NCBI GenBank assembly: GCA_947487745.1
Contig: CANKXQ010000013.1
Location: forward strand, 1-14,838
Reading direction: 5' to 3'
DNA length: 14,838 nt
DNA from: Spartobacteria bacterium
GTDB lineage: Bacteria; Verrucomicrobiota; Verrucomicrobiia; Chthoniobacterales; Terrimicrobiaceae
Below the pieces are notes generated by a model. The model saw only the letters and a program-made list of their open reading frames with translations, did no database searches and was not told where the DNA came from. Position 1 is the first letter of the stretch. Each line of letters starts with the position of its first letter. This document shows positions 1-2,882 of this stretch, in pieces. The translations under genes and the position numbers were made by a program.

Positions 1-31
1 GTGGGACATGAGCATTATTTATTTGAGCGAA
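1..31 (-). mobile_element. Start of integron gene cassette 3 (partial)
   Basis: The segment left of the cassette 2 recombination point begins, on the minus strand, with TTCGCTCAAATAAATAATG. The preceding G lies in attC 2, which gives the core GTTCGC. In-frame ATG codons at 13-15 and 7-9 start an ORF that leaves the window after at most five codons, so nothing can be said about its product. The AT-rich leader resembles the starts of cassettes 1 and 2. Confidence 0.6.
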
Positions 32-139
32 CGTCCCCAGTCACCTGCCCCGGACCGTCGGCGCGACGGATGCCGGGAGCGAAGCGACCAAGCATCCGGC
101 GTGACGACGGGTAGGGGTTAGGTGGACTGGATGGTTCGC
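27..139 (-). other. attC recombination site of cassette 2
   Basis: Read on the minus strand, it runs R'' GCGAAC (139-134), L'' CCAGTCCACCT (130-120), an imperfect central inverted repeat (about 53-114), L' AGGTGACTGG (46-37) and R' GTTCGC (32-27). L'' pairs with L' except for one unpaired C in L''. On the folded bottom strand this gives the extrahelical G used by integrases to choose the recombining strand. The crossover falls between 32 and 31. Confidence 0.82.
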
Positions 140-727
140 ATGTTTTTCATGGTATTATGTGCAAAGGATTTTCACAAGCATCTGGGCAAGCCCCCCTATT
201 TGGCTTTTGGTAAACATCGCGTTGGTGCGGATAAGTGTTGCGCGGGGAGCGGACTTTGATGCAGGGTAAAGAGCAATCTGAAGCTCCGTTACTCCATCAG
301 ACCGAATTAAGCTTCTCCAGTGCAGAATTAGTGACAGATCAACCAGTCCAATATTGCTCCCTTGTGTTCCGGAATTATCTGTCCCATCGACAGTTCTAGC
401 TTCGATGGCCAAGAGGTTTCCTCCAGCATAATCAACTCCAAAATGATACTCTTTCAGCAAAGCGATCATTTCGGGGTCTGTTTGATTGGCTAATTTGTTC
501 TTCCACTGGGATGCGGTCCGCTTCTTCCATGTCAACACCGAGTCTTGGTCTCCAAGCAACGCGAATACCTTTGCGGTCGCCGTTTCGAATATGGGCAGCG
601 ATGCTGTAATTGTTTTGACTATCGACTCAGAAAGCTGACTGGTTGTCTGGGTGCGAAGCACGTCGCTTGCAGTTTCGGTGAGTGATTTAAATATGTCGAA
701 TGGGTCAGTCATGATATTATTTGCGAA
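32..727 (-). mobile_element. Integron gene cassette 2 (696 bp)
   Basis: The cassette is bounded by two core sites, GTTCGC on the minus strand at 723-728 and at 27-32, cut between G and TT. It begins TTCGCAAATAATATC and ends with its attC. The R'' box of that attC, GCGAAC at 134-139, is the exact complement of the cassette's own first bases plus G. This match is what an excised, circular cassette requires, and it supports the boundaries. It carries one ORF (155-712) that nearly fills it. Confidence 0.85.
155..712 (-). CDS. Cassette-borne hypothetical protein (185 aa)
   Basis: I do not recognise this protein. The ATG at 712 (MTDPFDIF) was chosen over the one at 763 because the latter lies inside the preceding attC; the cassette itself starts at 727, giving a leader of only about 15 bases. 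The product looks soluble, with no signal peptide or clear membrane segment. The first 60 residues look helical and Ser/Thr-rich. The middle (about 65-90) is charged with a Trp-Lys-Lys-Arg patch, and the C-terminal half (about 100-185) looks alpha/beta. The stop is 16 bases before the attC R'' box, the tight packing normal for cassettes. Expression probably depends on a promoter in or near attI. Function is unknown; stress, defence or surface roles are common for cassette genes but nothing here points to one. Confidence 0.75.
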   Translation of the reverse strand: MTDPFDIFKSLTETASDVLRTQTTSQLSESIVKTITASLPIFETATAKVFALLGDQDSVLTWKKRTASQWKNKLANQTDPEMIALLKEYHFGVDYAGGNLLAIEARTVDGTDNSGTQGSNIGLVDLSLILHWRSLIRSDGVTELQIALYPASKSAPRATLIRTNAMFTKSQIGGLAQMLVKILCT

Positions 728-846
728 CGTCCCCAGTGACCTATCCCTGCTTGCTTTCGGCACTGTTCCTGCCCGCGAAGCGGATCAGCAGGAACTGTGC
801 CGAAAGTCCCGAAGGGACAGGGATTAGGTCGACTGGCTCGTTAGCT
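723..846 (-). other. attC recombination site of cassette 1
   Basis: Read on the minus strand, it runs R'' GCTAAC (845-840), L'' CCAGTCGACCT (837-827), a long central stem, L' AGGTCACTGG (742-733) and R' GTTCGC (728-723). L'' again has one unpaired C relative to L'. The central arms, 754-772 and 788-806, are 19 bases each with one mismatch and a 15-base loop. The L and R boxes match those of the cassette 2 attC closely, while the central stem differs in sequence, as expected for sites recognised by shape. Confidence 0.85.
754..806. repeat. Inverted repeat forming the central stem of attC 1
   Basis: The arms CTTTCGGCACTGTTCCTGC (754-772) and the complement of 788-806 agree at 18 of 19 positions. 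The loop is 773-787. With the flanking L and R boxes this would fold the whole attC into one long hairpin. There is no T-run beside it, so I read it as the recombination hairpin rather than a terminator. Confidence 0.85.
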
Positions 847-899: not shown

Positions 900-1256
900 T
901 CACTCAATTTTGTTTTGATTTTCAAAATACTCTATAAGTGAATCGCCAAGAATTTCTATGACGACAGCAGCAATTGGTGCTTTGACTGCCCAGCCTGCAA
1001 AAGGAACAAAATTGAGAGCTTCAAGCGCAGCAAGCTTTCCAAGAACAGCGGCCAATCCAACTCGTTTTGCAACCTCAATTGCATCCTCCATTGTGAATAG
1101 GCCTTTGTATATCTGACCAATATGATAGGCCATAGTGGTTTCCAGTGCCATCAATGCTACTGATGTTGTTCCCGGAATAACGGCTGCAATCACTATCCCC
1201 GTGCCAACAGCGGTATATCCGTGAACCCAGTTCTTTGCTTCCTCTCGTTTACTCAT
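900..1256 (-). CDS. Cassette-borne small hydrophobic protein, DUF697-like (118 aa)
   Basis: The only ORF of cassette 1 runs from an ATG at 1256 to a TGA at 900. A short polar N-terminus (MSKREEAKNWVHGY) precedes a hydrophobic Gly/Ala-rich stretch at about 15-40 that contains IPGTTSVAL. An amphipathic part with IGQIYKGLFTMEDAIEVAKR (about 46-65) and a second hydrophobic region at about 67-100 follow, then an acidic end. The order 'small-residue helix, IPG, helix with M..hIg.iYg, then G..G helix' recalls DUF697/YcjF-type membrane domains. This resemblance is by eye and no family is certain. It probably sits in or on the inner membrane. No good Shine-Dalgarno sequence is visible. Small hydrophobic cassette proteins are common and mostly uncharacterised. 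Confidence 0.7.
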   Translation of the reverse strand: MSKREEAKNWVHGYTAVGTGIVIAAVIPGTTSVALMALETTMAYHIGQIYKGLFTMEDAIEVAKRVGLAAVLGKLAALEALNFVPFAGWAVKAPIAAVVIEILGDSLIEYFENQNKIE

Positions 1257-1296: not shown

Positions 1297-1340
1297 ATTA
1301 TTTGCTAACGTTGTTTGGTCACACAAATTTCCAATTTAAC
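1297..1340 (-). other. attI-like integration site next to intI
   Basis: On the minus strand the sequence ACCAAACAACGTTAGC (1319-1304) leads into cassette 1. It resembles the end of class 1 attI (AAACAAAGTTAGGC). Its R' box is GTTAGC, and the crossover between G and TT is at 1309/1308. There is no long inverted repeat on the intI side, which separates attI from attC. Further integrase-binding repeats probably lie between here and 1385, but I could not define them. The cassette promoter and the intI promoter must both lie in this 76-base gap or within the start of intI; I see no convincing -35/-10 pair. Confidence 0.72.
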
Positions 1341-1385
1341 CATCAAGGCGAGAAAAAAGTGGACAATTCGGGCGGGCTTTGAATT

Positions 1386-2882
1386 ATGGGAGGTATGAGC
1401 GAGGGGAAAGAGAGAATTGTTGCGGAGCATCCGAAGGCGTGGGTGGTGCGGATGGTGGAGGGGCGAGGGTTGAGGGTGGCGGAGAAGACGCTGTATTGGT
1501 GGAGCGTGCATTTGGAGCGGTTTTTGAAGTTCTGTCGGAGCGCAGGGGCGGAGTCAAGCGAAATTCCCGAGGTGGCGGCAAGGTTGTTTTTGGAGTCGTT
1601 GCCAGTCGGCGGTTCGGCGCAGGATTTCGCGCGCGAGCAGGCGCGGATGGCGTTGGATGTTTTTTTGTCGGAAATAGAGGGGTGGACGTGGGGCGAAGAT
1701 CGGTATGGTCGGGTGGGGCCGAAATTTCGGTTGAAGACGAATTCGGCAGGGTTGACCACAGAGGACACCGGGGGCACGGAGGGTTGGGAATCCACAAATC
1801 GAAGAGAGAGCTCGGATGAGGTTTCATTTTTGTCTGAAAAGGGCGTTTTGGCGCCGCGGGCAGAGTCTCTGGGCGCAGGAGGTTCTGCGTTGAAACTTAC
1901 GGAGGTTGGGCACAGAGCTGGGCAGAATCGCGAGAGTTGGGAGGCGATGCGGCGGGCGTTGCGGGTGCGGCATTACGCGTTGCGCACGGAGGAGTCGTAT
2001 CTGCATTGGGTGGGGCGGTTTTTGAATTGGTTGGACCGGCGTGGCGGGGACTTGGAGGCAGTCGGCGAGAGAGAAGTGCGGGCTTTTTTGGAGGAATTGG
2101 CAGTTGGGCGAGGGGTGGCGGCTGCGACGCAGAATCAGGCGTTTTCGGCGCTGTTGTTTTTCTTTGGCGAGGTGTTGAAGCGTCCGCTGGAAAAAGTGGA
2201 TGCGCTGCGGGCGAAGCGGACGACGCGGCTGCCGGTGGTGCTGTCGCGCGAGGAGGTGCGAAGGTTGCTGGGCGGGTTGGAGGGCACGATGTCGCTGATC
2301 GGGAGGCTGCTCTACGGGACAGGTATGCGGATGATGGAAGCGATCCGGCTGCGGGTAAAGGATGTGGATTTTGACCGCCAGCAGGTCATCGTGCGCGAGG
2401 GAAAGGGGTCGAAAGACAGGGTGGTGATGTTGCCGGAGACGCTGCGGGAGCCGCTGAGGGAACATCTGGAACGGGTGAGGATTCTTTTCCATGAGGATCG
2501 TGCGGCGGGCTTGCCGGGCGTGTGGTTGCCCGGTGCGTATGGGGTGAAGGACCCGAAGGCTGGTGAGCGCTGGGAGTGGCAGTGGGTTTTTCCCTCCAAG
2601 AGCGTGGGCAAGGATCCGCGCAGCGAGTTGCGGCGGCGGCACCATGTGCATGACAACGGAGTTGGGAAGGCATTGGGCGTGGCGGTGCGGCGGGCGGGGA
2701 TCGCAAAAAAAATCACGGCGCACACGTTGCGGCATTCATTTGCCACGCATTTGCTGGAGGGCGGGGCGGATATCCGCACGGTGCAAGAACTGCTGGGCCA
2801 CAGCGATGTGAGCACGACGATGATCTACACGCATGTGCTGAACCGACCCGGCGTCTCGGTGCGGAGTCCATTGGACGCGTAG
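1386..2882 (+). CDS. intI: Integron integrase (IntI family tyrosine recombinase) with duplicated core-binding domain
   Basis: IntI cuts and rejoins attC and attI sites to insert and excise gene cassettes. The C-terminal catalytic domain (about 282-490) carries the tyrosine recombinase residues R315 (GTGMRMME), K340/K343 region (EGKGSKDR), H446 and R449 (HTLRHSF), H472 (LLGHSD) and nucleophile Y481 (MIYTHV). An insertion at about 370-420 (WLPGAYGVKDP, WEWQWVFPS, RRRHH) matches the extra patch that separates IntI from XerC/D. The usual core-binding domain is at about 183-265. A second copy occupies about 17-100, joined by a low-complexity linker (about 115-182), so the protein is 498 residues instead of the usual 320-350. 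Start: ATG 1386, with an alternative ATG at 1395. The coding strand is very G-rich. The gene is divergent from the cassettes and ends 173 bases before the next gene. All catalytic residues are present, so it may be active. Confidence 0.93.
   Translation: MGGMSEGKERIVAEHPKAWVVRMVEGRGLRVAEKTLYWWSVHLERFLKFCRSAGAESSEIPEVAARLFLESLPVGGSAQDFAREQARMALDVFLSEIEGWTWGEDRYGRVGPKFRLKTNSAGLTTEDTGGTEGWESTNRRESSDEVSFLSEKGVLAPRAESLGAGGSALKLTEVGHRAGQNRESWEAMRRALRVRHYALRTEESYLHWVGRFLNWLDRRGGDLEAVGEREVRAFLEELAVGRGVAAATQNQAFSALLFFFGEVLKRPLEKVDALRAKRTTRLPVVLSREEVRRLLGGLEGTMSLIGRLLYGTGMRMMEAIRLRVKDVDFDRQQVIVREGKGSKDRVVMLPETLREPLREHLERVRILFHEDRAAGLPGVWLPGAYGVKDPKAGERWEWQWVFPSKSVGKDPRSELRRRHHVHDNGVGKALGVAVRRAGIAKKITAHTLRHSFATHLLEGGADIRTVQELLGHSDVSTTMIYTHVLNRPGVSVRSPLDA
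1753..1785 (+). repeat. ACCACAGAGG-type short periodic repeat inside intI linker
   Basis: The stretch has roughly 10-base periodicity: ACCACAGAGG, ACACCGGGGG, CACGGAGG. It resembles a short repeat that, from memory, is scattered in many Verrucomicrobia and Planctomycetes genomes. It lies exactly in the low-complexity linker between the two core-binding domains of the integrase, which suggests the linker grew from inserted repeat DNA. Only this one copy was seen in the window. Confidence 0.4.

Follow-up and report, generated by a model that had tools for sequence, protein, structure and literature searches.

A Verrucomicrobiota integron integrase with a second core-binding-type domain at its N-terminus, and its tandem relatives

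The window, that is, the whole stretch of DNA analysed here, covers 14,838 nucleotides of contig CANKXQ010000013.1 (assembly GCA_947487745.1) from a Spartobacteria bacterium of the phylum Verrucomicrobiota, and it carries intI, a gene for a 498-residue integron integrase (IntI). Judged from its sequence, intI is an intact-looking integrase gene of the integron group with an extra, diverged copy of the core-binding (CB) domain at its front, hereafter N-CB, and this anatomy, an IntI with a second CB-type domain, is near certain. By profile comparison N-CB is homologous to the CB domains of IntI, codon comparisons place it under purifying selection, and it recurs in a large group of relatives, called tandem IntI below; its role is likely accessory rather than that of a second clamp on DNA.

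Identity and domains of the intI product

As for the identity of the protein, the NCBIfam integron integrase model, TIGR02249, scores it at 419 bits against a cut-off of 265, and Pfam finds one Phage_int_SAM_4 domain (residues 186-269) followed by one Phage_integrase domain (286-485); R315, K340, H446, R449, H472 and Y481, the catalytic residues expected of a tyrosine recombinase, are all present. The R-to-H span between the catalytic boxes is 134 residues, hence the IntI-specific insertion is kept; the median spans were 134 for tandem IntI (53 of 93 measured), 134 for other IntI (77 of 145) and 98 for Xer (7 measured), in a motif search that skips or misplaces the boxes in some rows, with ranges as low as -15 and -196. 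When the proteins were screened in a simple way for the motifs HxLR, LGH and YTH, 75 of the 93 tandem proteins passed; the 18 that failed (L034-L143, across all samples) may be partial sequences, variant motifs or decayed copies. Together with the adjoining attI candidate and attC-like hairpins (Table 1), the model score, the catalytic residues and the insertion bear out the first-pass annotation of the gene as an integron integrase. The frame also has an alternative start, ATG 1395, at which many homologues begin.

Table 1. Features of intI and of the adjoining integron in the window
Feature	Position	Strand	Basis
intI gene, 498-residue integron integrase with tandem core-binding-type domains	1386..2882	+	ORF (open reading frame), profiles
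Extra N-terminal core-binding-type domain (N-CB), residues 18-98	1437..1679	+	alignment, profiles, structure model
Predicted beta-hairpin after helix 4, residues 99-118, W.W......R.GP.FRLK	1680..1739	+	model, alignment
Variable linker, residues 119-182, predicted disordered (pLDDT 22-39 over 121-180)	1740..1931	+	model, alignment
Main core-binding (CB) domain, residues 183-281	1932..2228	+	Pfam Phage_int_SAM_4 at 186-269
Catalytic domain, residues 282-497	2229..2876	+	R315, K340, H446, R449, H472, Y481 present
attI candidate, about 64 bp	1307..1370		largely conserved in five loci, sharp start at AACG|TTG
Cassette ORF, 118 residues, DUF697-like (E 1.7e-6)	900..1256	-	Pfam
attC-like site of first cassette	723..845	-	hairpin folding
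Cassette ORF, up to 202 residues, no clear family	155..763	-	Pfam
attC-like site of second cassette	27..139	-	hairpin folding

Evidence for a second core-binding-type domain

The duplication was proposed in the first-pass annotation from an ungapped alignment of residues 19-94 with 185-260, with about 21 identities in 76 positions; a recount gave exactly 21, at the positions listed. The constant offset of 166 on which that alignment relied is sure from about residue 45 onward, whereas ahead of it a gapped alignment places a four-residue gap in helix B; the strongest ungapped stretch pairs 45-97 with 211-263. When the N-terminal 165 residues were shuffled, the best 76-residue identity count was matched by one shuffle in 1000 and the best ungapped segment score by one in 500; the Smith-Waterman score of N-CB against the main CB domain of the same protein, 79, was reached by none of 2000 shuffles.

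Scans with Pfam and NCBIfam, of the whole protein or of residues 1-180 alone, found no domain in residues 1-180, so the case for homology is built on profiles of relatives. Residues 1-180, used as a query, returned 39 homologues, 35 of which were aligned with the intI product (36 rows); a profile of their N-terminal region matches its main CB domain (199-273, E 3.2e-4) and, reciprocally, a profile of their main CB domains matches its N-terminal region (30-98, E 1.1e-4). Profiles from which the protein and its five nearest relatives were held out also find N-CB, at 35.4 bits (E 5.8e-11) for the N-CB profile and 12.0 bits (E 0.0012) for the main-CB profile, and none of 2000 shuffles reaches either score (best 9.9 and 5.7 bits, respectively); in this test the left-out rows were not in the profile, but the other rows had been picked in rounds that included them, an issue from which the first round of the survey described below, made with main CBs only, is free. 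Among the relatives, the SAM_4 domain of Pfam is recognised at E ≤ 1 in 34 of 88 extensions, and the extension of L044 reaches 34 bits, above the curated cut-off of 27. A profile of the N-CB family (60 of 93 domains), run against the sequences in the PDB, puts the CB domain of IntI4 first (2a3v, residues 11-87, E 2.1e-5) and that of XerA second (E 0.0038), with the remaining 11 rows over E 0.2. The proposal of a tandem CB-type domain is thus upheld by both held-out profiles and, in the relative L044, by Pfam itself.

Regarding the predicted structure, N-CB is modelled with helices at residues 18-26, 33-53, 61-71 and 77-96, four helices as in the main CB domain, and the top VIA rows for residues 18-98 are IntI4 and XerA. 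The ten-residue means of the predicted local distance difference test (pLDDT) are 81-93 for residues 21-100 of the full-length model; N-CB modelled alone has a mean pLDDT of 87.9 and a predicted template modelling score (pTM) of 0.80. The pTM of the full-length model is 0.40, with no confident packing of the domains, and structural searches with this model bear mainly on residues 178-491. The beta-hairpin that follows helix 4 is kept in the lineage of the intI product, its W.W and F being present also in L093. In the linker, positions 1756-1768 hold CCACAGAGGACAC, which occurs 10 times in the 1.5-Mb genome and not at all in the backwards control, and the linkers of homologues show TTEDTxxTE-like stretches of varying length; on these two observations, a dispersed repeat may have lengthened the linker.

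The extension is also constrained. In comparisons of the intI product with L005, L006 and L007, the ratio of nonsynonymous to synonymous substitution rates (dN/dS) is 0.18, 0.18 and 0.12 for residues 17-98, and 0.17, 0.30 and 0.19 for the main CB domain; it is 0.30, 0.16 and 0.33 for the hairpin (20 codons), 0.54, 0.19 and 0.49 for the linker (which in L006 is near synonymous saturation), and 0.02-0.03 for the catalytic domain. The low values in residues 17-98 indicate that N-CB is translated and constrained about like the main CB domain. A wrongly called start codon, with the real one near residue 180, is opposed by this selection and by the conservation of the extension in the 36-row alignment.

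Distribution of the tandem architecture

Of 387 Verrucomicrobiota genomes searched with TIGR02249, 108 had a match over the cut-off, and 110 among the matches listed were taken as loci; four further genomes served to choose phyla for smaller samples (140, 149, 299 and 150 genomes, 24 to 30 loci each). After duplicates and incomplete matches were dropped (profile start >15, end <280, score <150), 238 IntI were kept, and an IntI was called long if 84 or more residues, counted from the first possible start codon, precede its CB domain. The Verrucomicrobiota sample, 108 distinct IntI, contains 75 long ones, six with 40-83 residues before the CB domain and 27 with fewer; elsewhere, long IntI make up 14 of 22 in the phylum of G389, 2 of 29 in that of G388 (a Gammaproteobacteria record), 4 of 28 in that of G394 (a Deltaproteobacteria record), 4 of 28 in that of G392 (a Gemmatimonadetes record), and 12 of 22 among the named records.

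In its first round, the profile built from main CBs only picked up 41 of the 112 long IntI by their extension (E<0.01); the rebuilt profile found 83 in the next round and settled at 93. None of the 118 sequences in each control set (reversed, shuffled, catalytic-domain pieces) matched in the first round, nor at E<0.01 in the final one, although two reversed sequences fell under 0.1 in one round. The 93 N-CB carriers are the intI product, 11 of the 12 named loci, 73 of the 75 from Verrucomicrobiota, 7 of the 14 from the G389 phylum and one of the two from the G388 phylum; in this profile survey N-CB was absent from the long IntI of the G394 (0 of 4) and G392 (0 of 4) phyla. The extensions of those eight proteins (L146, L151, L161, L165, L234, L240, L248 and L249), 87-279 residues long, would be open frames that arose by chance or N-terminal domains of another kind.

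The tandem form therefore accounts for 73 of the 108 distinct Verrucomicrobiota IntI, and the earlier contrast with typical IntI, said to have one such domain, does not apply within the sampled Verrucomicrobiota, where two are common. A survey of related IntI for the same extension and linker length had been suggested as a check; it found the extension in 93 of 112 long IntI, with 1 to 117 residues between the end of the N-CB profile match and the main CB domain, and it rules out that the duplicated clamp is unique to this protein. Outside Verrucomicrobiota, relatives occur in Chromatiaceae and Mariprofundus: plasmid pTs485 of Candidatus Thiodictyon syntrophicum encodes a 454-residue tandem carrier annotated as 'integron integrase', with two SAM_4 stretches, Thiorhodococcus minor has a tandem carrier of 432 residues, and Mariprofundus ferrooxydans an N-CB carrier of 329 residues, cut short at its C-terminus.

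Among plasmid records (PLSDB, best 5000, mostly enterobacterial) none covers 80% of the intI product, a test blind to diverged N-CBs: the first record, that of Thiodictyon, covers 63% yet has an N-CB. The N-CB of L209 has a match in one PLSDB record. The N-CB of the intI product has no match in 50,697 phage records, which leaves a phage origin without support. When the N-CB profile was run against 12,136 ORFs of the collected loci, the matches outside IntI frames were shifted or broken copies (L088, L142, L196, L194 and L033) and one weak match (L046, E 0.0022), which speaks against a stand-alone N-CB protein in these loci. In L088, L142 and L196 the frame that encodes N-CB overlaps the IntI frame but differs from it, as the result of a frame shift or an assembly error.

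Ancestry of the extra domain

In a FastTree tree of the 238 IntI, built on the CB and catalytic parts only and leaving the extension out, a single group of 106 tips, with support 96, takes in all 93 tandem IntI, and a single origin of the tandem form is likely on this evidence; the presence and absence of N-CB need at least 11 changes on the tree. Of the 13 non-tandem members of the group, three carry N-CB in another frame (L088, L142, L196) and five run off their contig (L117b, L090, L076, L020, L009). The other five, L193, L128, L108, L068 and L189, seem to be without N-CB and would be natural deletions, useful for comparison; L068 starts 41 bases from a contig end.

Two 70-row trees with six Xer outgroups place the root inside the tandem side; the best split of the second puts 26 of the 30 tandem rows with Xer and four with the 34 others, and a constraint holding the tandem rows together was not rejected (approximately unbiased test, AU p 0.476). 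An ancestral and a derived tandem form are both compatible with the trees. It could be argued that the tandem form is old, possibly the starting state of IntI, that the short form, including that of clinical class 1, arose by loss of the front domain, and that N-CB is an independent, CB-derived equivalent of an arm-binding domain giving attI specificity; taken as a whole, we regard this as an improbable reading.

As for the source of N-CB, hhalign gives it 97.3% with the CB domains of non-tandem IntI, against 86% with a Xer CB profile for which only 7 of 20 Xer proteins passed the cut. In a best-of-three comparison over the 93 N-CBs, the profile of other IntI won 58, the Xer profile 22 and the tandem-IntI profile 13. 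A Xer-type domain is the less similar candidate by hhalign, but with 22 of the 93 going to its profile the source of the copy may be of either kind. A recent duplication from the protein's own CB domain is in general ruled out, since own pairs of N-CB and CB average a Smith-Waterman score of 37.8 against 34.8 for random pairs between proteins. The score of 79 within the intI product stands far above that average, and slower divergence or gene conversion in its lineage is a possible explanation.

Proposed role of N-CB

A column comparison of the two domains in the 93 tandem proteins, less certain in the first helices than in the last, reveals that the hydrophobic frame is mostly kept (F/Y 46, F/Y 68, L69, L72, A89 and L90), along with Q85-A86, whereas the near-invariant polar residues of the main CB domain, RTE and TQNQ, are lost from N-CB. 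R or K stands at position 200 in 83% of main CBs and at the matching position 34 in 36% of N-CBs; T201, found in 91 of 93 main CBs, has no conserved counterpart; T248 (84 of 93) is matched by Q in 55 of 85, and Q249 (93 of 93) by V, L or I in 58 of 84. Given their invariance, the polar residues of the main CB domain probably contact DNA in IntI. N-CB has features of its own: position 81, where helix 4 starts, is W in 61 of 75 (the intI product has F there), and it shows newly common basic residues on helix 4, K or R at 87 (47%) and at 91 (55%).

These data are best explained, with a modest balance of probability in favour, by a protein whose CB-plus-catalytic half works on attI and attC, and whose N-CB is an accessory module on a tether, serving attI-flanking DNA or a neighbouring subunit. 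By analogy with Vibrio IntI4, the C-terminal half would grip and recombine attI and folded attC; N-CB, released from recognition of the att core and sitting on a flexible, fast-evolving linker, would contact something beside the core, most likely attI-flanking DNA, in an arm-type manner, or a neighbouring subunit, and this contact would serve to position or regulate the synaptic complex. The data suit the arm-type role and the subunit contact nearly alike. No direct repeats of at least 10 nt, as candidate arm sites, were found in 1256-1400, although arm sites may still exist.

The strongest competitor, which we rate as possible but clearly less probable than an accessory module, holds that N-CB makes no DNA contact at all and is a protein-protein or autoregulatory module on the main CB domain or on a neighbouring subunit, which limits activity or sets the geometry of the tetramer. 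The loss of the polar signature suits it, as do the V, L or I at the place of the invariant Q249, the W at the start of helix 4, the lower net charge of N-CB, and linker lengths of 1 to 117 residues, as for a tether; the basic residues on helix 4 do not, nor does K34, kept in all 36 rows of the alignment of the intI product with its relatives, where the main CB domain has R200, and the full-length model gives no confident domain packing.

With regard to the two DNA-binding clamps of the first-pass annotation, a true second clamp on the att core or the attC stem is unlikely. N-CB belongs to the same domain family as the main CB domain, it shares Q85-A86 and A89-L90 with it, and in the intI product K34-T35 keep the character of R200-T201; however, the 93 tandem proteins as a set have neither R/K at 34 (36%), nor T at 35, nor the TQNQ motif, and the loss of these near-invariant residues makes a second att-core clamp doubtful: the core of the fold seems to be kept, and the equivalents of T201, T248 and Q249, the att-core signature, are missing.

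A chance likeness to CB, in a helical or winged-helix DNA-binding domain of other descent, is a very improbable account of the N-terminal domain: the domain does have four helices followed by a beta-hairpin, and Foldseek with the N-CB model alone gave nothing significant, its best 50 rows including IHF, PerR and RQC domains and no recombinase, but several sequence-profile lines, some of them with empty controls, point to IntI and SAM_4, and the hairpin motif expression matches only 5 of the 93 tandem proteins. Least credible is a wrong start or a roleless remnant, with the working protein starting near residue 180; the lack of a Pfam match in the extension and the few members of the tree group without N-CB, or with it in another frame, would agree with it, while dN/dS near that of the main CB domain, the conservation of the extension and its presence in most long IntI speak against it.

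Integron context

The attI candidate, two attC-like hairpins and minus-strand cassette ORFs adjoin intI, divergent from it, as judged by sequence and folding only, and the integron looks canonical. Beyond the attI candidate, four of the five loci in which it is conserved have cassette-side DNA, different in each, while the contig of L028 ends there; a conserved site with differing adjoining DNA is what an attI next to a different first cassette in each locus would show. For the first cassette, positions 720-845 fold at -44.8 kcal/mol on the plus (bottom) strand (z -9.7 against shuffles) and at -43.7 on the other, so that the bottom strand is barely better; for the second, 12-133 fold at -34.3 kcal/mol on the plus (bottom) strand (z -4.9) and at -26.6 on the other, the bottom strand being clearly better. 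The two sites share 25 nt at 88%. The host element looks like a sedentary chromosomal integron.

Comparison with known recombinases

Integrases of the IntI1 and VchIntIA (IntI4, PDB 2a3v) type are without the extra CB-type domain and linker found here, about 180 residues in all. In Smyshlyaev et al. 2021 (PMC8138268), the integron-like subgroup is classed among the simple recombinases, in which one CB and one catalytic domain are usual, an architecture from which the intI product departs because of its second CB-type domain. According to the same survey, RitA, of recombinase-in-trio elements, is the only tyrosine recombinase with two CB domains in sequence; it, too, has both ahead of its catalytic domain. 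As a positive control, the SAM_1 domain of Pfam is recognised twice in each of two proteins encoded on plasmid pHG1, presumably RitA by their place in the trios that PMC2864759 describes. RitA differs from the intI product in that it lies in a trio with RitB and RitC and gives weak IntI profile scores; no such trio was found around intI, and the other recombinase matches in the genome (1.5 Mb, 64% complete) are on contigs C26 and C36. Against RitA the N-CB profiles score no better than E 0.06, and hhalign gives 27%, which lends no support to RitA as the source of N-CB; RitA is a precedent for tandem CBs, and the sequence comparisons leave common tandem ancestry neither shown nor excluded.

The arm-binding, or complex, tyrosine recombinases resembling lambda integrase also have an extra N-terminal domain ahead of CB, one whose structure varies greatly and which binds arm sites (PMC8138268); here, instead, the domain is of the CB type and no arm repeats were found. 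As for other long IntI, those of clade 15, from Deltaproteobacteria, are on average about 120 residues longer, which is credited to one gene fusion in Nemergut 2008 (PMC2426708); in our sample from the phylum of the Deltaproteobacteria record none of four long IntI has N-CB, and the clade 15 extension may be the same thing as N-CB or another. Among the titles and abstract starts listed by searches of the open-access literature, none describes a second CB domain in IntI, and within that scope the tandem form is apparently a widespread IntI variant that has gone undescribed.

Implications for integron integrases

IntI are usually treated as CB-plus-catalytic enzymes, and the results above describe a large IntI group with two sequential CB-type domains, which sits in a phylum rich in long IntI (75 of the 108 sampled). 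How one enzyme recognizes both double-stranded attI and folded single-stranded attC is a mechanism still debated; a constrained accessory domain beside the clamp, with relatives in named Chromatiaceae, would make part of this question testable by domain deletion and swaps.
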